59,203 nt of DNA, from contig VGIW01000009.1 of assembly GCA_016867715.1 (NCBI GenBank), positions 1-59,203 of the forward strand, in the 5' to 3' direction. Below, piece after piece: positions 45,638 to 54,440 of this stretch (positions are counted from its first letter, which is position 1; every line of letters begins with the position of its first letter). Both the position numbers and the translations under genes were made by a program. Origin of the DNA: Candidatus Eisenbacteria bacterium. Its GTDB lineage: Bacteria > Orphanbacterota > Orphanbacteria > Orphanbacterales > Orphanbacteraceae. The notes beneath the pieces were generated by a model. It did no database searches. It was not told the origin of the DNA and saw nothing but the letters and a program-made list of their open reading frames with translations.

Positions 45638-48136
45638 CTATCGCAAGAGCACCATGCGCTTCGTCTCTTCCTGCCCGTTCCAGCGGAGCCGGTAGAAATA
45701 CACGCCGCTCGAAACGGACCGGCCTCTTTCGTCGAACCCATTCCAGGTCACGGCGCGCGCTCCGGGCCCTTCCGGACCGTCGACGAGCACGCGAACGAGG
45801 CGGCCCGAGAGATCATAGACACGTAAAGAGACCGGAAGCGCGCCGGCCCCTTCCGGAATCGTGTAGGCGATCCGCGTCGATGGATTGAACGGATTCGGGA
45901 CGTTTCTCGCGAGGACCGCGCGCGAGGCCGCGCGGGGAGCATCGGAAGCGATCTCGGTCTCGACCTCCTCGTACGTCACGAGCGAGAAGTCGTCGACGCC
46001 GGCTTCGATGACCGACATATACCCCTCGTCGCTCGCGATGAATCGAAAGCGGACCTCGGAGGTAAGAGGGATGAAGTCCGACAGGTTCCGCTCGACGAAC
46101 TGCCAGCGCTGATCGCTCTTCCCGTCCGTCTCGATCCGCACCCAAGAGACTCCACTATCCGAGGAAACGTCCACCACCCATTCGTCCGGATCGAGAAAGC
46201 CGGTGTTGTTCGAATACCAGCGATAGTACCGAACCCGCACGTTCGGATACGACGACAGGTCATAGACGGGACTGAAGAGCGTCGTCTTCCCCCCCTGGAC
46301 CTCGTTCGCGCGCTGCGTCGACCCCGGAGGCGCGTTCCCCGTGACGAAGCACATCGTTCCCGGATCGGGCGTGTGGTCCTCGTCCGGAGCGACCGGGCCG
46401 TTCGGCCACCAGGTCCCGTTCGGGGCTGCACGCTCCCAAATCCCCTTCGTCGCGTCGTCGTCCGCGTCCCCGACAATCCACCCGCTCTCCTCCTCGAGCC
46501 CGTCCACCACGATCGGCGTGATCGTACCGACGAAGAACGTGTGTACGCTTTCCGGCGCGCCTTTCGGAACGACGAGCCGGTCTCCGTCCATGTCCCCCGC
46601 GACGAGGTAGTAATCGACGAACGTTCCGGATGGTTGCGGAGGAATGAACGCCTCGTATTCGTTCGGTCCGGCCGCAGGTGTAAGGACGAGGTCGCTCCAT
46701 GCGCTGCTCGTCCGATACCGCACGAGGAGCGAATCCGGATTCAGCGAGCCGGAGGCGGTGATCGTCGCGAGAACTCGGTGCGGGTTCTCCGAGTCCTCCG
46801 TATGCGCGAGAGGAACGTGCTCGATCGCGATGTCGAAAGGCTCGGCCATCGTCGCCAGGAGCCCGACCGCCGCCCGTACCGAGCGTTCGGCGAGCGCCTC
46901 CGAGATATAGCTGATTCCGATCCTGTCGTTTGATGTATGAATATATGGCGAGTACTGGTTCGAATCTTCAAAGAAAAGGATCGCGTCGTAGCCGTGCCTC
47001 CAGAAGGACGCATGATCGCTGCTCGCGCCCCCCGGGATCGCTCCGTCCACGATCGAAAGCTCCGGCACGTAGACGCTCCCCACATCCATCACAAGATCCC
47101 GCATCCAAGTCGAGGCGACGTTCTTGACGATGTCAAGATCGATCGCGTCGCCCGGCGCCACGTAGCCGATCATGTCGGCGCAGACGACGCCGATAACGTC
47201 GTCGCCGTCGTGCGCGGCGCGCGCGGCGAATGCCTCGCTCCCGACGAGTCCGACCTCCTCCCCTCCGAAGGCGACGAACACGAGCGTGTGGTTGAACGTA
47301 TACCGGCTCAGAATGCGCGCACACTCGATCACGAGAGCGGTCCCCGACGCGTCATCGTCCGCGCCGGGGCAGTAGTTGTGGTTCCCAGTGATCGAATCGT
47401 AGTGGCCGCCGACGAGAACGATCTTGTCCGGGTCCTTCACGCCGGGGATCACGGCCACAACGTTGTGCTTGATGTCCGGATCGAACCAGTGGAAGTAAAC
47501 GCTGTCGATTCCGAACGATTCGAACTTCGCCTGGATCCAGCTCGCGGCGGCGGCGCAGCTGTCGTGGCGGCAGTACCGGGTACGGAAGTCCTGGAGACGC
47601 TGGACGACGGCGGAGACCTCCGCGATCGAAACGGAATCCACCATCTCCTGGACGAGCGGATCGGCGGTCAGCCTCTTGGCGGCGCGAGGAGCCTCTTCCG
47701 CGGACCGGACGCGCGCCGGATCCGTGAAGACGCGCGCGATCTCGAAACCGACCGCGGCGAGCGCCTCCGCCTCTTCAGGCTCGGCGCGCACGAGCGCGTC
47801 GATCCCATCGCTATAGAGAACCCGCACGGCCGTGGAGACGGCGGCGAGACCCTTCGCGTCCCGAACAGACACCGTGTAAAAGGTTTTTGTATCCATCGAA
47901 ACGTCCGCGATCTCGTGTTCGATCCCAAGCTCCTCAAGACGGGCGATCTCTCTCGGACCGGCCGCGACGATGAGAAACCGATCCATGTCGCGGAGGATCG
48001 TGACGCCCTCGTCTTGCAGACGGGCGGCGAGACCAGGGGGAGCCTCGACGACGACGACGAGAGCTTTGTTCGCGGATGAGGCCGCGGCGAGCGATGCAAG
48101 ACCAAGAAGAAGCGCGGCGACGAGGCCTTTCAGCAT
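45638..48136 (-). CDS. secreted M28-family zinc peptidase with FlgD-like sorting domain
   Basis: An 832-residue exoenzyme. A signal peptide (LVAALLLGLASLAAASS) is followed by a propeptide-like region of about 150 residues. The M28 catalytic domain has the full zinc set: GGHYDS, PGADDDASG, FGGEEVGLVG, CADMIGYV and YIHTSND. Two beta domains follow, the second with VSSDSGVSWVRIETDG (MAM/jelly-roll-like). The FlgD-like C-terminal domain carries NPFNPSTRIAYTIPEGAG and GVYFYRLRWNG...MVLLR. It is predicted to be a secreted aminopeptidase or carboxypeptidase. ATG 48136 has AGGAGGG nine bases upstream; an ATG at 48154 would overlap that ribosome site. A strong promoter and a terminator make it a single-gene unit. 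Confidence 0.9.
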   Translation of the reverse strand: MLKGLVAALLLGLASLAAASSANKALVVVVEAPPGLAARLQDEGVTILRDMDRFLIVAAGPREIARLEELGIEHEIADVSMDTKTFYTVSVRDAKGLAAVSTAVRVLYSDGIDALVRAEPEEAEALAAVGFEIARVFTDPARVRSAEEAPRAAKRLTADPLVQEMVDSVSIAEVSAVVQRLQDFRTRYCRHDSCAAAASWIQAKFESFGIDSVYFHWFDPDIKHNVVAVIPGVKDPDKIVLVGGHYDSITGNHNYCPGADDDASGTALVIECARILSRYTFNHTLVFVAFGGEEVGLVGSEAFAARAAHDGDDVIGVVCADMIGYVAPGDAIDLDIVKNVASTWMRDLVMDVGSVYVPELSIVDGAIPGGASSDHASFWRHGYDAILFFEDSNQYSPYIHTSNDRIGISYISEALAERSVRAAVGLLATMAEPFDIAIEHVPLAHTEDSENPHRVLATITASGSLNPDSLLVRYRTSSAWSDLVLTPAAGPNEYEAFIPPQPSGTFVDYYLVAGDMDGDRLVVPKGAPESVHTFFVGTITPIVVDGLEEESGWIVGDADDDATKGIWERAAPNGTWWPNGPVAPDEDHTPDPGTMCFVTGNAPPGSTQRANEVQGGKTTLFSPVYDLSSYPNVRVRYYRWYSNNTGFLDPDEWVVDVSSDSGVSWVRIETDGKSDQRWQFVERNLSDFIPLTSEVRFRFIASDEGYMSVIEAGVDDFSLVTYEEVETEIASDAPRAASRAVLARNVPNPFNPSTRIAYTIPEGAGALPVSLRVYDLSGRLVRVLVDGPEGPGARAVTWNGFDERGRSVSSGVYFYRLRWNGQEETKRMVLLR

Positions 48137-48195
48137 CGGAATGACCCTCCTCATATGCCCGGGATCCCGTTCCGGGACGTTCCAGTTAACGTCTT

Positions 48196-48300: not shown

Positions 48301-49140
48301 CTACTTCGGCGGCTCGGCCAGGTTCACCCGAATCTCGAGCATCGAGTCGCCGAGAAACGCCTCGCCGTACTTCTCTCGATAGTCTCGAAAGAGCAGGCGG
48401 TCCGGGTCGGCGCGGAGCACCTCGAGATACGGATCGAGGTTTGTCACGAGGTTCGCGAAGGCGGCGCGCGCGGTCTCCGCGTCCGGATACGGAACTCGAA
48501 TGAGCACTCGCGAGGAGTCGCCCGCATCGACGACGTTCCCCGAGACGCCGAATACCTTCCCTGCGAGCATCAGGATGTCCCCTTCCCCAAGCGTGAAGAT
48601 CGCCTGAAGAGAGTAGGGCCCGCGCACGATTCGCTCCGACCCGGGAACGAGGCCGTCCTGCGGAAGAAGATCGAGGAGCCTCGCCGCCTCTCCGGGCTCG
48701 GCGTCGGCGAGAGCTCTCGATGCGAGTCCGGCCATCGCGGGAAGGAGAGCATCCCCGCCGTGGTTGTTCACCTGAACGTAGGTCGCCCCCTTCACGGCGA
48801 TCAGTTGATGGCGGTTCCCGCTGTTCCGCTCGCCGACCTCTCCGACCGGCCGCTCGTCGCCGCGCATCGCGAGATAGATCGCGAGAGCCGACTCCGGGCT
48901 CTCCATTCGGTATCTTTCGACGACAAGCTCCCGTCCGTCCTTTCGAAACCGCTCGACCCGAAGGTCCTTGAAGCCAAGCTCGAAGAAGAGCTCGGCCCCG
49001 CCGTCGATGTGGCCGTAGAGGTCCTTCCCTACGAAGCGGAGCGGGCGCTCCTCGCGCGCCCACCCCACCAACGGCTCTTCCGCTCGAGCGGAGAAGAACG
49101 CGGCGGCGAGAGCCGCGAGCCCGACGAGAACGGATCGCAA
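48301..49140 (-). CDS. DUF6599-like exported protein
   Basis: A 279-residue protein with a cleavable signal peptide (LVGLAALAAAFFSARA). Its body has the opening HIDGGAELFFELGFKDLRVERF, a middle segment GNRHQLIAVKGATYVQVNNHGG and a C-terminal LVTNLDPYLEVLRA. I recognise it as resembling DUF6599, a family of unknown function. The start is TTG 49140, with GGGGGGAG five bases upstream; no ATG fits the signal peptide. It is the last gene of a coupled four-gene unit with two DUF362 proteins and a polyferredoxin and follows the second DUF362 gene by 28 bases. It probably works in the periplasm with that redox chain. Confidence 0.75.
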   Translation of the reverse strand: MRSVLVGLAALAAAFFSARAEEPLVGWAREERPLRFVGKDLYGHIDGGAELFFELGFKDLRVERFRKDGRELVVERYRMESPESALAIYLAMRGDERPVGEVGERNSGNRHQLIAVKGATYVQVNNHGGDALLPAMAGLASRALADAEPGEAARLLDLLPQDGLVPGSERIVRGPYSLQAIFTLGEGDILMLAGKVFGVSGNVVDAGDSSRVLIRVPYPDAETARAAFANLVTNLDPYLEVLRADPDRLLFRDYREKYGEAFLGDSMLEIRVNLAEPPK

Positions 49141-49168
49141 GACACTCCCCCCTTTCGTTCGTCCCTGT

Positions 49169-50377
49169 CTATGAGTGAAGCACCTCGATCTTCTCCGGAT
49201 CCGCGACCCCGAGCCCAAGCCGCTCCGCGTAGCGAAGATACTCGGTGTACTTCGGATGCTCGTTGACGTCGATCCCCATGCTCTTCCGCTTCTCGACCAT
49301 GATCGCATGGCAGACCGCGTCCAGCGCGAAAGGATCGGTGGCGAAGAAGAGCGTGTTGTAGACGTACCTGGCCGCCGCGTTCGGCATCGGCCCTCCGTCG
49401 TACTGTCCCCAGAGACCGTCCGTCACCGAGAGGACCATCTTGTCGCGGACCGCGGGGAACGCCAGCACTTCCGTGCAGACGTCGAAGAAAAGCGGCTGGT
49501 GCAGGCGTCCGGTGTTGCAGATCGCTCCGTAGCCCATGTTCTTCGTCGCCATCGAAATGCCGTTCCCCGTGTTCTTGAAGACCGGAACATTGATGATCTT
49601 CGTAAGCCTCTTCGTGAGCAGCTTGCCGAAGTAGGAGTGCCGGCCGTTGAACACGTGCTGGTTGAGATACTGCTTGTCCGACGGGGCCTCGACGTCCGCC
49701 CAGTAGTATGCGTCGGGATCGAAGTTGCCGGCGCTCTTGTGGTTCCCGTCGGCGTCGAGCCAGCCGCTGTCGTCCTCGCTTTCGCCCGACGCGGCCGATT
49801 CGTCCATCGTCTGAAGTCCCTCGATCCCGACGCCCGGGTAACGCTCCGCCGTGAACCCGGCATCCCGGAGCATGTAATCGAATCGATCCCAAATAACGAT
49901 CCGCTCCTTCGGGATGCCGCTTGCCGCGAGCCAGAGAACGATCGCATCGACGAGTTCGAGACGCGTGCTGATGAGACCCGGGCCGACCGGGTTCACCTTG
50001 ATGCCGACGATGTCGTCCTTCGAGAAGAGAAGATCGAACGCCGCCTTCTCGTCGCCGCCCGCAAGCGCGCGGATGCCTCGGTTGAACATCGCCTCCACGA
50101 CCTCCGCGCGCGGCTCGTCTTCCCGTACCGCCTGGGGATCCATCACGTGGACCACCCTCCCGGGAAAAGGCCCGGGGAGCGAATGAGTCGTTCTCGGGAC
50201 CTCAAGCGCCTCGTCGATGTTCGTCTTCGCGCGCGCTTTCTCCGGCGACTTCTCCTCCGCCCACACGGACGGGTTTCCGAGAAGAAGCCCCGTGCCGACC
50301 GCTCCGCTCGCTTTCAAGAACGCGCGGCGGTCGACGAGAAACGCGCGCGGCATGCTCCGATACCTCCCGGTCTTCAT
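49169..50377 (-). CDS. Tat-exported DUF362 protein (second)
   Basis: A 402-residue protein with a twin-arginine-like leader (VDRRAFLKASGAVGTGLLLG, about residues 15-34). DUF362 marks are DDIVGIKVNPVGPGLISTR, KRLTKIINVPVFKNTGNGIS and the late VYNTLFFATDPFALDAVC. Tat export implies folding, possibly with a cofactor, before transport. DUF362 proteins are uncharacterised. The ATG overlaps the stop of the polyferredoxin gene by four bases (ATGA, 50374-50377). GGAGGCGGGGGAT lies upstream. It is longer than its paralogue at 52083, with an insertion rich in Asp/Ser (SGESEDDSGWLDADGNH). Confidence 0.87.
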   Translation of the reverse strand: MKTGRYRSMPRAFLVDRRAFLKASGAVGTGLLLGNPSVWAEEKSPEKARAKTNIDEALEVPRTTHSLPGPFPGRVVHVMDPQAVREDEPRAEVVEAMFNRGIRALAGGDEKAAFDLLFSKDDIVGIKVNPVGPGLISTRLELVDAIVLWLAASGIPKERIVIWDRFDYMLRDAGFTAERYPGVGIEGLQTMDESAASGESEDDSGWLDADGNHKSAGNFDPDAYYWADVEAPSDKQYLNQHVFNGRHSYFGKLLTKRLTKIINVPVFKNTGNGISMATKNMGYGAICNTGRLHQPLFFDVCTEVLAFPAVRDKMVLSVTDGLWGQYDGGPMPNAAARYVYNTLFFATDPFALDAVCHAIMVEKRKSMGIDVNEHPKYTEYLRYAERLGLGVADPEKIEVLHS

Positions 50378-52086
50378 AGTGATCCCCCGCCTCCGGCCCA
50401 CGAGCCGGCGGCCTCTCGACCTCGCGGTTCCTCCTCGCTCCCTTCCTTGTCTTCATAGCCGCCCGCGCCGGGGAAGACGGGAAGGAGCGGACGATTCCTC
50501 GGATGACGGCTCTCGTTGGCGCTCGTCACGCGGATCGCCGCCAGATCCTTGAAAGGACAAACATATTCGCAGATCCCGCATCCGGTGCAAAGATCCGGAT
50601 CCATGCGCGGCTGCTTCAACACGCGGACCGTTCCGTCCCTTAGGCGAACCGGCGTCTCGACGAAGTAGATCGCCTTGTCCGGGATCGGGCAATGCTCCTC
50701 GCAGACGATGCAATCCCGTTCATACGCGTACGGAAGGCAGCGGGTCGTGTCGATTAAGGCGAGCCCGATGCGGACCTCCTTCTTCTCCGGAAGAGGCAGA
50801 GGAAGGATGGCGGATGTCGGACAGACCGCCCCGCAAAGATTGCATTCGTACTCGCAGTATCCGAGGCGCGGAACGAGCACGGGGGTCCAGATCCCCTCGA
50901 GTCCGCCCTGGAGCGTCGCCGGATGAAGCGCGTTCGTTGGGCACACCTTCATGCACATTCCGCACTGCACGCACCGGTCGAGGAAACTCGCTTCCGGACG
51001 CGAGCCGGGCGGACGGATCAGCTCAGGGTTGTACGTGCGCGCCTGCGCGCGAGGAGAGAGACGCATCGCGAGCAGCGCGCCGGCGCCGCCGAAGGCGGAA
51101 GCGAGGACGGCGCGGCGTCGAAGATCGATCGAGCCGGCCGGCGTCTTTCTGAAGGGCGATTCCCAGCGAAAATCGATCGCGTCCTGCTTGCACGCGGCGA
51201 CGCAGTTCCAGCAACCGAAGCACTCGACCGGAAGCCACTTGCCCGGCAATTCCGGCTGCGCCGCCGCCGGGCAGGCGAGACGGCAGAGGTTGCATCCCCC
51301 GCACGCCTCGTTCTCGGATCGAAGCCGGAGAAGGGTTCGTCCGGCGAAGAGACCGAGGAGCGCGCCGAGAGGGCACACGTAACGGCACCAGAACCGGGTG
51401 CGAAAAAGGTTGAAAAGCGCCGCCGCGAGAAAGACGAGAAACACGAGCGTGCTCCCCGCGAACGCCGCTCGTTTCACGACGAAAACGTGGTCGCGCAACA
51501 ATCGGTAGACCGGCTCGCTGATCGACGCAAGAGAAAGAGGGCCGGCGCGCGGGTCCTGGTGGTAGATCGCCGTCGAGATCGCCTCCACCGAGTAGTGGAG
51601 CGAGGGAAGAACAGCCACGGCGACGCTCCGGTAGAAGAGAGCGATCGGATCGAAGACGCCGATCCAGTGCGCGCCGAGGATCGCCATCGCGGCGAGCCCG
51701 AAGAGAACGTAGTACTTCGCGCGCTGCCAGCGGGAGAACGCATCGCCGCCGGAGAGAAGACGCGTCTTCCTCGATCGGATCGTCGCGATCATGTTGTGGA
51801 GCGTGCCGAAGGGACAGATCCACCCGCAAAAGACGCGCCCGAGAAGGATCGTGAGGACGACGGTAGCGAGCGCCAGAAGGGAAAGCCCCTCGAGGGAACG
51901 GGCGGAAAGCCAGGTGGCCGCCAGAAGAAGAGGATCCAAGTCGAAGAAGAGGGAGAGAGCTCCGTCCGGTGGACCATCCGCCGGAGAGCGCGTCGCGAGA
52001 AGAAGACTGAGAAAGAGAACGAAAGCGATTCCCTGCACCGCGCGCCGCGTCCAGACGACGATCCGCGCGCGCCTTCGGGCGATCAC
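50374..52086 (-). CDS. NapH/NapG-like membrane polyferredoxin fusion
   Basis: A 570-residue electron-transfer protein. The first half is NapH-like: about four membrane segments, two CxxxCP loops (C87/C91 in FCGWICP, C234/C238 in WCRYVCP) and two [4Fe-4S] sets (262-272 and 289-299). The second half is NapG-like with four more cluster sets (372-382, 411-422, 450-466, 500-510). Between them lies LRRRAVLASAFGGAGALLAM (322-341), a twin-arginine-like hydrophobic segment as at the NapG N-terminus. This suggests a NapH-NapG fusion that kept the old export signal as an internal membrane span. It would draw electrons from quinol. The start is GTG 52086, overlapping the upstream stop (GTGA). Confidence 0.9.
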   Translation of the reverse strand: MIARRRARIVVWTRRAVQGIAFVLFLSLLLATRSPADGPPDGALSLFFDLDPLLLAATWLSARSLEGLSLLALATVVLTILLGRVFCGWICPFGTLHNMIATIRSRKTRLLSGGDAFSRWQRAKYYVLFGLAAMAILGAHWIGVFDPIALFYRSVAVAVLPSLHYSVEAISTAIYHQDPRAGPLSLASISEPVYRLLRDHVFVVKRAAFAGSTLVFLVFLAAALFNLFRTRFWCRYVCPLGALLGLFAGRTLLRLRSENEACGGCNLCRLACPAAAQPELPGKWLPVECFGCWNCVAACKQDAIDFRWESPFRKTPAGSIDLRRRAVLASAFGGAGALLAMRLSPRAQARTYNPELIRPPGSRPEASFLDRCVQCGMCMKVCPTNALHPATLQGGLEGIWTPVLVPRLGYCEYECNLCGAVCPTSAILPLPLPEKKEVRIGLALIDTTRCLPYAYERDCIVCEEHCPIPDKAIYFVETPVRLRDGTVRVLKQPRMDPDLCTGCGICEYVCPFKDLAAIRVTSANESRHPRNRPLLPVFPGAGGYEDKEGSEEEPRGREAAGSWAGGGGSL

Positions 52087-53027
52087 GAGACGGCGACCTC
52101 GCGCAGGCGGAGCTCCCGGTAGGCGATCCGCCCGAGACCGGCGGCCTGGGCCGCCTTCACCGTTCCGATCCGCGCGGGGTCGTGGCCGAGAAGCTCGGCC
52201 CCGAACGCGTCGAGCGCGACGATGTCGATGGACGCGGCGACCGTGTCCATTCTCTTGACGTCGGAAAGATTTCCTCCCTGCGGGCCGCGGTCCGTGAGAA
52301 CGCGCGCGCAGTCGAGGATCGAGAGCCTCGGCTTGATGAAGGCGGTGATATCGCAGAGGCAGCCCGCGAGATCTTGATGCCACGCCCCGCGATTCCCTCC
52401 GATGATCCCCATGTAGTTCTTCATCGCGAGGGTAGCGCGGGAGAGCCCGTGATGCTTCGCGACCGGAACGTTGATCAGGAGATCGGCCTCGAGGATCTCA
52501 GGATAGAGAGGCCACTTGTCGAGAACGCGGCCGCCGATCTTGACGTCGCGGAAGCGGTTCTCGTCGAGGAAGACGACCTCCGCGCCCGCTTCCCTCGCGG
52601 CCGCCTCGATGCCGCTCGAACGGTAGGACTGCCTCGCGTCGTGGCAGGTGTTGTCCCCGACCTTCACCTTGCGAGCGCCGGCATCGAGCGAGAGGCGCAC
52701 GAGCGCGGCGACGACCGCGGGGTTCGTCGTCGCGGCGAGCTCCGGAGCGCGGTTCCAGGCGATGTTCGGCTTGATCCAGACGACGTCCCCCCTGCTCACG
52801 AAGCGCCCCATGCCCCCGAGACTCTCGATCGAGCGCTCCGTGAGAGCGGCGGCCATCTTGTCGACAGCGTCCTCTCCGACCGGATCGCCCGCCCATCTTG
52901 CGATGCACATGTCGGGGGGCGAGGCGTCGGTTTCGCCGTCCGCCCAGACCGCGTAGGGCGCGAGCGCGGCCGCCCCCGCGGCGGCCGCCGCTTGCCTCAA
53001 GAACTCACGTCTCGTTGTGTTCGTCAT
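52083..53027 (-). CDS. Tat-exported DUF362 protein (first)
   Basis: A 314-residue protein with a classical Tat signal (TTRREFLRQAAAAAGAAALA, residues 4-23). DUF362 marks include GDVVWIKPNIAWNR, VAKHHGLSRATLAMKNYMG and CDITAFIKPRLSILD. GAGGAGG lies five bases before the ATG. An extended -10 promoter lies upstream at 53049-53054. It is the first gene of the four-gene unit, and its stop overlaps the polyferredoxin GTG. The second copy in the same operon suggests the two DUF362 proteins have different tasks on one electron chain. Confidence 0.9.
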   Translation of the reverse strand: MTNTTRREFLRQAAAAAGAAALAPYAVWADGETDASPPDMCIARWAGDPVGEDAVDKMAAALTERSIESLGGMGRFVSRGDVVWIKPNIAWNRAPELAATTNPAVVAALVRLSLDAGARKVKVGDNTCHDARQSYRSSGIEAAAREAGAEVVFLDENRFRDVKIGGRVLDKWPLYPEILEADLLINVPVAKHHGLSRATLAMKNYMGIIGGNRGAWHQDLAGCLCDITAFIKPRLSILDCARVLTDRGPQGGNLSDVKRMDTVAASIDIVALDAFGAELLGHDPARIGTVKAAQAAGLGRIAYRELRLREVAVS

Positions 53028-53048
53028 GGCGTCCTCCTCGGGGACTTC

Positions 53049-53057
53049 ATCATACCA
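53049..53057 (-). promoter_or_regulatory. extended -10 promoter of the DUF362/polyferredoxin operon
   Basis: On the minus strand TGGTATGAT (53049-53057), an extended -10, lies about 20 bases before the GAGGAGG ribosome site and ATG 53027. No clear -35. Confidence 0.5.
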
Positions 53058-53201
53058 AAGATGATGAGGAACGTCAGGCGGCCGCGTTCGGATTCGCCGT
53101 TCGATCGGATCCGCCTTCGCGGTCCGCGCGAACCATCGGCAAGCGCCTTGGGGGGATCAAACAGCGCGGGCCGTCCGAAAAACGCCCGCGCCCGAATCCG
53201 C

Positions 53202-54440
53202 TCAACGAATCAGGACGAGCTTCTCGACGACTGATCGCTCGCCCGCGACGAGCCGCGCGAAGTAGACACCCGAGGCGGCCTCGCGCCCCGCATCGTCCTT
53301 CCCGTCCCAGGAACGTTCGAACGCGCCGCTCGCGAAGCGCCCGGAGGCGAGCGTGCCGACCCGGCGTCCCGCCGCGTCGTAGAGAACGAGCACGAGATCG
53401 CCCGGCTGATCGATCGTGAAGCGGATCGTCGCCGTCGCGTTGAATGGATTCGGAGAGATCGCGAGAAGGGGCGCCGCGAGAACCGCTCCGGCGACGGAGG
53501 TCGAGGTCTCCGCGCGGAGCACCGCGAGAAGCGGGACGTGATCGCTGCTCTGATGGAGAGCCTCGGCCACTTCCGGCGGGACGGCCGCGTTGCCCCCCTG
53601 AATGATGGATTGGTTGAGGTGCGCCCCGTCGTTTCCGAAAGCGATGTACGTGTCCGCGTCGATCTCCAGGCCCACGCCGTCGAGCATCTCGACGCTCGCC
53701 AGGATCATGTCGAAGCGGTCGTCCATTCCGCCCGTCGCTCCTCCTCCGAAGGAGGTCGTCCGCGTGCTTTGCGTGTGAATCGAAGCGTACGCGGCGTTGT
53801 CGTGCCAATCGCCTTCCTGATCGATCGGGTCGTAGAGTCTCCCGGGCCCCTCCAAGACGAGATGCTGATAGGCGGATTCCGATGCCGTGTAGATATTGAA
53901 GTCCCCGGCGACCACGAACGGAAGATCCGCATCGAGCGTGTCGAGGGCGTTCCGGAGAATCGTGCACTCAGCGAGACGCTTCGCCTCGTTGTCGCTCCCC
54001 TGACTCGCCTTGAGATGAAGTGTGTAGATGCGGACCTCCTCGCCGCTCTCGGGGAGACGGACATGCCACCAGTCGATGTCGCGAAGAGCGGTGTCGAGCC
54101 ATCCGTAGCCCAGGACCTCGATCGCGCCGGTGCGGTAGAAGAGCGCACGGTCTGTATCGAAGCCGTCATGAAAAGGCCCCGCGGACCACACTCCCGGCTC
54201 GACGAACTCGAGGACATCCGCGAGAAACGCGTTCACGCCGGACTGCCCATTCATCTCCTGCACGACGAGAACGTCCGGTCCGAGGCTTCCGAGGACGGTC
54301 CGGAAGTAGGGCGCCCTCTCGGGCCCGGTGCTTCCCGGGTAGTTCAGCAGGTTCCAGGTGGCGAGAGCGATCTCCTCCGCGAAGATCGGCGGGATCGCGA
54401 GAACGCTCGCGAGGAGAACGGCGGCAATAAGTCTTCGCAT
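53202..54440 (-). CDS. secreted endonuclease/exonuclease/phosphatase-fold protein with FlgD-like sorting domain
   Basis: A 412-residue exoprotein with signal peptide 1-21 (ending PPIFA). The EEP (DNase I-like) domain has ATWNLLNYPG, VVQEMNGQ (metal Glu), YTLHLKAS, VVAGDFNIYT and the late SSDHVPLLAVL (catalytic Asp-His). Members hydrolyse phosphodiesters or sugar/lipid phosphates, so secreted DNase or phosphatase are both possible. The last 85 residues are the FlgD-like domain (ISPNPFNATATIRFTI ... GVYFARLVAGE). AGAGGTG precedes the ATG. Its own promoter has a perfect TATAAT. Confidence 0.9.
   Translation of the reverse strand: MRRLIAAVLLASVLAIPPIFAEEIALATWNLLNYPGSTGPERAPYFRTVLGSLGPDVLVVQEMNGQSGVNAFLADVLEFVEPGVWSAGPFHDGFDTDRALFYRTGAIEVLGYGWLDTALRDIDWWHVRLPESGEEVRIYTLHLKASQGSDNEAKRLAECTILRNALDTLDADLPFVVAGDFNIYTASESAYQHLVLEGPGRLYDPIDQEGDWHDNAAYASIHTQSTRTTSFGGGATGGMDDRFDMILASVEMLDGVGLEIDADTYIAFGNDGAHLNQSIIQGGNAAVPPEVAEALHQSSDHVPLLAVLRAETSTSVAGAVLAAPLLAISPNPFNATATIRFTIDQPGDLVLVLYDAAGRRVGTLASGRFASGAFERSWDGKDDAGREAASGVYFARLVAGERSVVEKLVLIR

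Follow-up and report, generated by a model that had tools for sequence, protein, structure and literature searches.

A widespread pair of a Tat-exported DUF362 protein and a membrane polyferredoxin, with a candidate link to the nickel-pincer nucleotide

With what does a NapGH-type electron conduit exchange electrons when it is encoded beside exported proteins of the DUF362 family? The question is raised by an operon in a stretch of 59,203 nucleotides from Candidatus Eisenbacteria bacterium (GenBank assembly GCA_016867715.1, contig VGIW01000009.1, positions 1 to 59,203), hereafter the window. Its four minus-strand genes, A to D, encode a DUF362 protein carrying a leader for twin-arginine translocation (Tat), a NapH-NapG polyferredoxin, a divergent Tat-DUF362 protein and a DUF6599 protein. 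NapGH is the quinol dehydrogenase of periplasmic nitrate reductase. A first-pass annotation, made from the letters alone, had proposed a quinol-fed periplasmic electron chain ending in a DUF362 protein; the chain idea is supported in part, by the tight pairing of a NapGH-type conduit with an exported DUF362 protein, although 'quinol-fed' sets a direction that no evidence decides. We find that A-B is real, occurs widely and forms a redox module for which the literature searched holds no description. Its parts come from known families, but it fits the definition of neither NapGH nor LarA. Modelling further suggests that A is probably a relative of the lactate racemase LarA and a candidate carrier of a rare cofactor, the nickel-pincer nucleotide (NPN), with both the LarA fold and the cofactor-site residues.

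A near-constant gene pair across phyla

We scanned 84,980 species genomes for B and took the 80 best homologues for neighbourhood counts. By record titles these fall into about ten phylum-level groups, including Hydrogenedentota, Planctomycetota, Nitrospirota, Desulfobacterota-type lineages, Acidobacteria, Aminicenantes, Krumholzibacteriota, Ignavibacteriales and others. At 77 of the 80 loci a homologue of A precedes B on its strand; the two are within 500 bp of each other at 75 loci, and overlap or stand at most 20 bp apart at 53. Two of the three loci without it are contig ends. Among the recurrent neighbours of the 80 loci we found neither NapA, whose absence the first-pass annotation had anticipated, nor any other known terminal reductase, and near A-B there was neither a neighbour matching A in frequency nor a conserved client gene. 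Because no other gene recurs as often as A, the core of the system is A-B; the search for partners of B across phyla that the annotation had suggested thus returned A, whereas C and D proved inconstant. Within the phylum of the window, sampled with seven genomes, all four genes recur with their order kept in two further genomes, one from the window's own genus and one from a different genus, and the unit is therefore not a chance arrangement. In a third genus the DUF6599 gene precedes A-B, and the place of C after B is taken by a Tat-exported aldo/keto reductase (AKR).

Gene B (50374..52086, minus strand, GTG start) encodes a membrane protein whose halves match NapG (1.4e-30) and NapH (2.7e-26), both under the equivalog cut-offs, and which also matches part of NosR (6.7e-13). 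It has six four-cysteine [4Fe-4S] sets with invariant cysteines, two NapH-type CX3CP motifs and four strong hydrophobic segments; profile matches and cysteine sets thus bear out the two-part architecture read at first pass. An internal twin arginine with a weak hydrophobic segment (51052..51120, end approximate, minus strand) is the likely site of a Sec-to-Tat hand-over: the Arg pair is invariant, with RRR at residue 323, no strong hydrophobic peak follows it, and a homologue provides an experimental precedent (PMC5449189). B does not represent a novel protein type. By its sequence, it is a member of the Sec/Tat dual-targeted polytopic polyferredoxins. That family was described in 2017 as a NapH-NapG fusion in Nitrospirae, deltaproteobacteria and others, with no function or gene partner given, and a requirement for both Sec and Tat was demonstrated for its MLMS-1 member (Tooke et al. 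2017, PMC5449189). Tat-dependent export of B is predicted from that homologue. By homology with NapGH, for which the topology is established, B would have its C-terminal clusters on the periplasmic side and a membrane half that faces the quinone pool. Six Nitrospirota genomes (G168, G188, G204, G227, G229 and G238) carry B homologues of about 500 amino acids that match only profile positions ~205-540; in this variant the membrane half has diverged, and DUF6599 is present in the same six genomes.

A predicted LarA-like fold and cofactor-site residues in A

Gene A (52083..53027, minus strand) encodes 314 amino acids that match Pfam DUF362 (PF04015) with an E-value of 1.1e-52 and 179.5 bits (cut-off 24) and, over a Tat leader, the TAT_signal_seq model. 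Its predicted structure is confident (mean pLDDT 94.5, pTM 0.87). When compared with the PDB using Foldseek, all 17 matches at E<=2e-4 were LarA-family NPN enzymes, each at probability 1.00 with most of the chain aligned, and beyond these 17 the matches were weak and mixed. A PDB search with the sequence of A, single or as a profile, gave no match.

The structural resemblance is accompanied by a motif, H193-x9-K203-x13-H217 (52377..52451, minus strand), which is invariant in the A alignment and is present as H-x9-K-x12/13-H in all 77 scorable A homologues. Its counterpart in the LarA of L. plantarum is His174-x9-Lys184-x15-His200, where Lys184 is the attachment point of NPN, His200 a nickel ligand and His174 a catalytic residue (PMC9283937, PMC12611868). 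Other DUF362 proteins bridge the two families: an alignment of a LarA profile with DUF362 proteins from Nitrospirota places GFTGGVK opposite GFSGGRK in the same H-x9-K...H register, and Pfam Lar_N matches such non-A proteins at E-values of 3e-5 to 5e-4 (two of them in one scan, weakly). DUF362 and LarA share Pfam clan CL0471 (PMC11770544). Within curated families, A matches the Npun_F2552 family (NCBIfam NF052623) at 5.6e-26 over most of its length, far under the 500-bit cut-off. As the Lar_N and LarA_C domains were not found in it, A is not filed as a LarA. The LarA-only structural matches of A and its retention of the LarA H-x9-K...H motif are new in this analysis. The first-pass annotation had stated that no oxidoreductase subunit lies in the unit; given the modelled LarA fold of A and its cofactor-site residues, the DUF362 proteins are themselves likely to be the oxidoreductases of the unit.

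NPN genes and the proposed chemistry

If A uses NPN, genes for making the cofactor might be expected in its company, and at some loci they are its neighbours. Seven genes on one strand read A-B-AKR-D-larE-larB-larC at locus L023, with a 26-base gap ahead of larE and 4-base overlaps afterwards, and L027 has the same order; at L098, A-B-AKR-D faces larE-larB-larC, and at L084 and L096 larE adjoins the cassette. LarE was confirmed with curated NCBIfam models at L084 and L023; for LarB and LarC, the corresponding proteins of the window's genome, themselves confirmed, served as the reference. No LarA was found at any of these five loci. A rough binomial estimate puts the chance of at least four such neighbours among 78 loci at 2e-4 to 7e-4, contiguous order not counted.

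An association is also seen at the level of whole genomes. Among 148 Nitrospirota, in which the absence of LarA was judged by one Pfam model, larC occurs in 107, LarA in 13, DUF362 in 91 and B in 39. Uncorrected for phylogeny and genome completeness, larC is present in 86 of the 91 genomes with DUF362 and in 21 of the 57 without it (p 1.6e-14), and among LarA-less genomes in 74/79 with DUF362 versus 20/56 without (p 2.5e-13, likewise uncorrected). It is also present in 38 of the 39 genomes with B, and only 11 Nitrospirota have DUF6599. In the match tables, read by eye, no close spacing of larC and DUF362 was seen on Nitrospirota contigs. Within a control set of 14 genomes, larC occurs together with DUF362, and without LarA, in Synechococcus elongatus and Haloferax volcanii; C. 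glutamicum and M. jannaschii have larC and neither of the other two. About 15% of surveyed genomes, many cyanobacteria included, have larB, larC and larE without LarA; the study reporting this regards the recipient of the cofactor in such genomes as still to be found and expects its fold to be unlike that of LarA (PMC11796402). A link between NPN and DUF362 appears in the literature searched only in the form of DUF362 as a phylogenetic outgroup.

The genome of the window (3.5 Mb) encodes LarB and LarC equivalogs together with a LarA, and its larC was set aside as evidence because that LarA already explains it. Of the five genomes of the phylum that have LarA, four carry a gene for a cytoplasmic DUF362 protein directly upstream of larA; such pairs occur in the window's genome (C33; L016:9709-10839 and then LarA, with a TGATG stop/start overlap) and at L168, L170 and L171.

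On balance we favour, with moderate confidence, the reading that A, and perhaps C, is an NPN-dependent hydride-transfer enzyme that is exported by Tat and, by way of B, exchanges electrons with quinone. Since NPN synthesis is cytoplasmic, any NPN enzyme active outside the cell has to leave it already folded; Tat exports folded proteins, which fits the leader of A. The cofactor would be tethered to A in the cytoplasm, probably on Lys203 and with His217 on the nickel, and the folded holoprotein would then pass through Tat. In the periplasm, NPN would take a hydride from, or give one to, a hydroxy- or keto-type substrate with the help of His193. LarA enzymes draw a hydride off a 2-hydroxy acid onto NPN and then restore it. 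Here, unlike in a racemase, the hydride would not return to the same molecule; two electrons would instead pass to the periplasmic clusters of B and cross its membrane half, to or from the quinone pool. C (elsewhere the AKR, mostly Tat-exported) and the secreted D would act with the A-B conduit as an accessory module, and C could be a second NPN-type enzyme. Because A keeps the tether, the nickel ligand and one catalytic His, shows no invariant counterpart of the other and has a near-constant conduit, the simplest reading is that hydride is delivered to B as electrons, or the reverse. NPN occupancy, net redox chemistry, the substrate, the direction of electron flow and the roles of C and D are all inferred.

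Several observations weigh against this proposal. The TM-scores of the A model to LarA-family structures are just 0.41-0.49 (Foldseek), and Pfam Lar_N matches none of 48 aligned A-type proteins, A included. Comparing the A and LarA alignments with hhalign gave 0.1%, which is not significant even though the best path kept the motif register, and structural comparison was used for that reason; the residue equivalence between A and LarA accordingly draws on fold and motif and on what non-A members of DUF362 show, not on a sequence match of A's own. In the region of LarA His108 the A alignment offers Asp125 and no invariant or near-invariant His, site equivalence there not being fixed by superposition. 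Adjacency of NPN genes to the cassette, seen at 5 of ~78 loci, is not the rule, and those genes might conceivably serve the AKR. The association of DUF362 with larC is, as stated, uncorrected for phylogeny and completeness, and five Nitrospirota, all with small genomes (1.4-2.0 Mb), have DUF362 without larC, as does the control Bacteroides ihuae; not every DUF362 protein, then, need use NPN. Finally, 20 of the 94 larC-bearing Nitrospirota without LarA also lack DUF362, so DUF362 is not the whole answer to the orphan-larC question, and further NPN clients may exist beyond LarA and DUF362.

These points leave room for other explanations, of which the strongest, though we think it unlikely, is a version of the first-pass idea that makes no use of NPN: quinol electrons would pass from B to DUF362 proteins holding another cofactor or acting as Fe-S-linked carriers, the likeness to LarA being only an ancestral fold. 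The A-B linkage and the NapGH likeness of B would suit such an arrangement, as would the genomes with DUF362 and no larC and the ferredoxin domains built into other DUF362 proteins. One of these, C78 of the window's genome (L015:12254-13327), contains within itself a ferredoxin cluster pair, the partner that A has in B. Against it stand the NPN-site Lys and both His, kept in every scorable A homologue, the larE-larB-larC genes adjoining the cassette and the strong association of DUF362 with larC where LarA is absent. Less probable again is that A is an NPN enzyme and a plain periplasmic racemase, epimerase or isomerase, with the electrons of B merely repairing or activating the cofactor. LarA-family enzymes are indeed racemases and epimerases in which the hydride normally goes back to the substrate (PMC12611868), but A shows no invariant His in the region of LarA His108, and a near-constant six-cluster conduit would be a costly provision for occasional repair.

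We give little credence to the idea that the NPN genes serve the AKR or DUF6599 instead of A, or that A carries NPN to the periplasm. The AKR and D do stand between B and larE at L023 and L027; yet the AKR is by Pfam an ordinary aldo/keto reductase, the LarA-fold protein of those operons is A, and larC is nearly universal in B-bearing Nitrospirota, only 11 of which have DUF6599. Slighter still is the chance that the unit assembles or repairs some other periplasmic metalloenzyme in the manner of NosR, which the partial NosR match of B and the lack of an obligately linked substrate enzyme might suggest; against it, the 80 loci show no conserved client gene near A-B. Hydride transfer by an NPN-bearing A remains our preferred reading. 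A broader claim, that DUF362 at large supplies the missing non-LarA NPN clients and that A-B is the first NPN enzyme to perform net redox chemistry, quinone-coupled from the periplasm, we advance tentatively and with somewhat less than even confidence.

Accessory genes, setting and comparison with known systems

The first-pass annotation had treated the four genes as one fixed system. We rejected this view, as C-D separates from A-B and an AKR replaces C in many genomes; C-D, or AKR-D, is a separable accessory module. Gene C (49169..50377, minus strand; 402 amino acids) has a Tat leader with a weak TAT_signal match, so that the two twin-arginine leaders noted at first pass, those of A and C, were both upheld by a leader check. 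Pfam DUF362 matches its C-terminal half (4.9e-11, 43.5 bits, cut-off 24), and a PDB search with its sequence gave a chance match only. In C the motif reads N-x9-K-x13-H (49499..49573, minus strand), with Asn in place of the catalytic His in all seven scored homologues; C3-type DUF362 proteins have H-x9-K-x12-H in 8/8. Gene D (48301..49140, minus strand, TTG start at 49140) encodes a secreted protein of 279 amino acids with a Sec-type leader and a match to Pfam DUF6599 (PF20244; 1.5e-23, 83.8 bits, cut-off 27). Its predicted structure is confident, comparison with the PDB gave no confident relative, and no paper on DUF6599 was found in the literature searched.

In 32 further stretches around DUF6599 genes of B-bearing genomes, an AKR or a C-type DUF362 gene adjoins or lies near the DUF6599 gene in 28. 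Most of these AKRs have a Tat leader and a C-terminal cysteine motif; those of L137, L139, L141 and L146 show no such leader. Even where it is unlinked to B, DUF6599 is nearly restricted to B-bearing genomes: all 11 Nitrospirota with DUF6599 have B (p 1.3e-7), as do 25 of 29 such genomes among 68 Hydrogenedentota, 35 of which have B (p 6e-7). This near-confinement suggests that D and the oxidoreductase with which it is partnered depend on the conduit formed by A-B. At one Hydrogenedentota locus (L155:8612-11001) D-A-B is followed by a tandem pair of genes for Tat-exported AKRs. A second DUF6599 gene with a C3-type Tat-DUF362 gene is found in the window's genome (C23, L013:9315-11143) and at L017:9544-11381; the pair adjoins a gene resembling those of peptide transporters and a group of probable polyamine genes whose members, read by eye, resemble S-adenosylmethionine decarboxylase, deoxyhypusine synthase and agmatinase.

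The layout of the operon is as first described: A and B overlap by GTGA and B and C by ATGA, 28 bases separate C from D, and an extended -10 promoter (CTGACG-17-TATGAT with TG; 53049..53077, minus strand) lies ahead of A. The promoter-site search found two sites of the extended -10 kind, against 0.3 expected. Outside the operon, the flanking genes (45638-48154 and 53202-54440) encode an M28 peptidase and a protein of the endonuclease/exonuclease/phosphatase family, both with FlgD-like C-terminal tails.

Our findings offer DUF362 as a concrete candidate for the orphan NPN client, with its LarA fold, site residues, lar neighbours and tracking of larC in LarA-less genomes, and they give the polyferredoxin family of 2017 a partner and a testable role. 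Confirmation of the cofactor in A would resolve part of the open NPN question. If the proposed chemistry is true, NPN, whose redox is otherwise hidden, would become an open redox cofactor, and many bacterial phyla would harbour a nickel redox enzyme that is categorically new.

Each part of the module has a known counterpart from which it departs. B shares with NapGH the NapH CX3CP motifs, the cytoplasmic clusters and the NapG-like, Tat-dependent clusters, but it fuses both halves, and its partner is a DUF362 protein in place of NapA/NapB. Like the published polyferredoxins (PMC5449189), it is a NapH-NapG fusion with multiple [4Fe-4S] sites and a twin arginine just ahead of its final, weakly hydrophobic segment; seven clusters were predicted for the protein of that study, whereas B has six sets and a near-constant DUF362 partner. 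A resembles LarA (DUF2088) in fold, clan, H-x9-K...H arrangement and, in some genomes, the NPN biosynthesis genes nearby, and differs in being exported by Tat, in lacking the Lar_N/LarA_C signature, in showing no invariant first catalytic His, and in being paired with an electron conduit; its likeness to the Npun_F2552 family extends over most of its length at a score far below that family's threshold. The Asn of C at the place of His174 recalls a LarA subfamily with a single catalytic His (PMC12611868; PDB 9q3j and 9q3k, both among the PDB matches of the A model), from which C is set apart as a DUF362 protein that is Tat-exported and sits with DUF6599.

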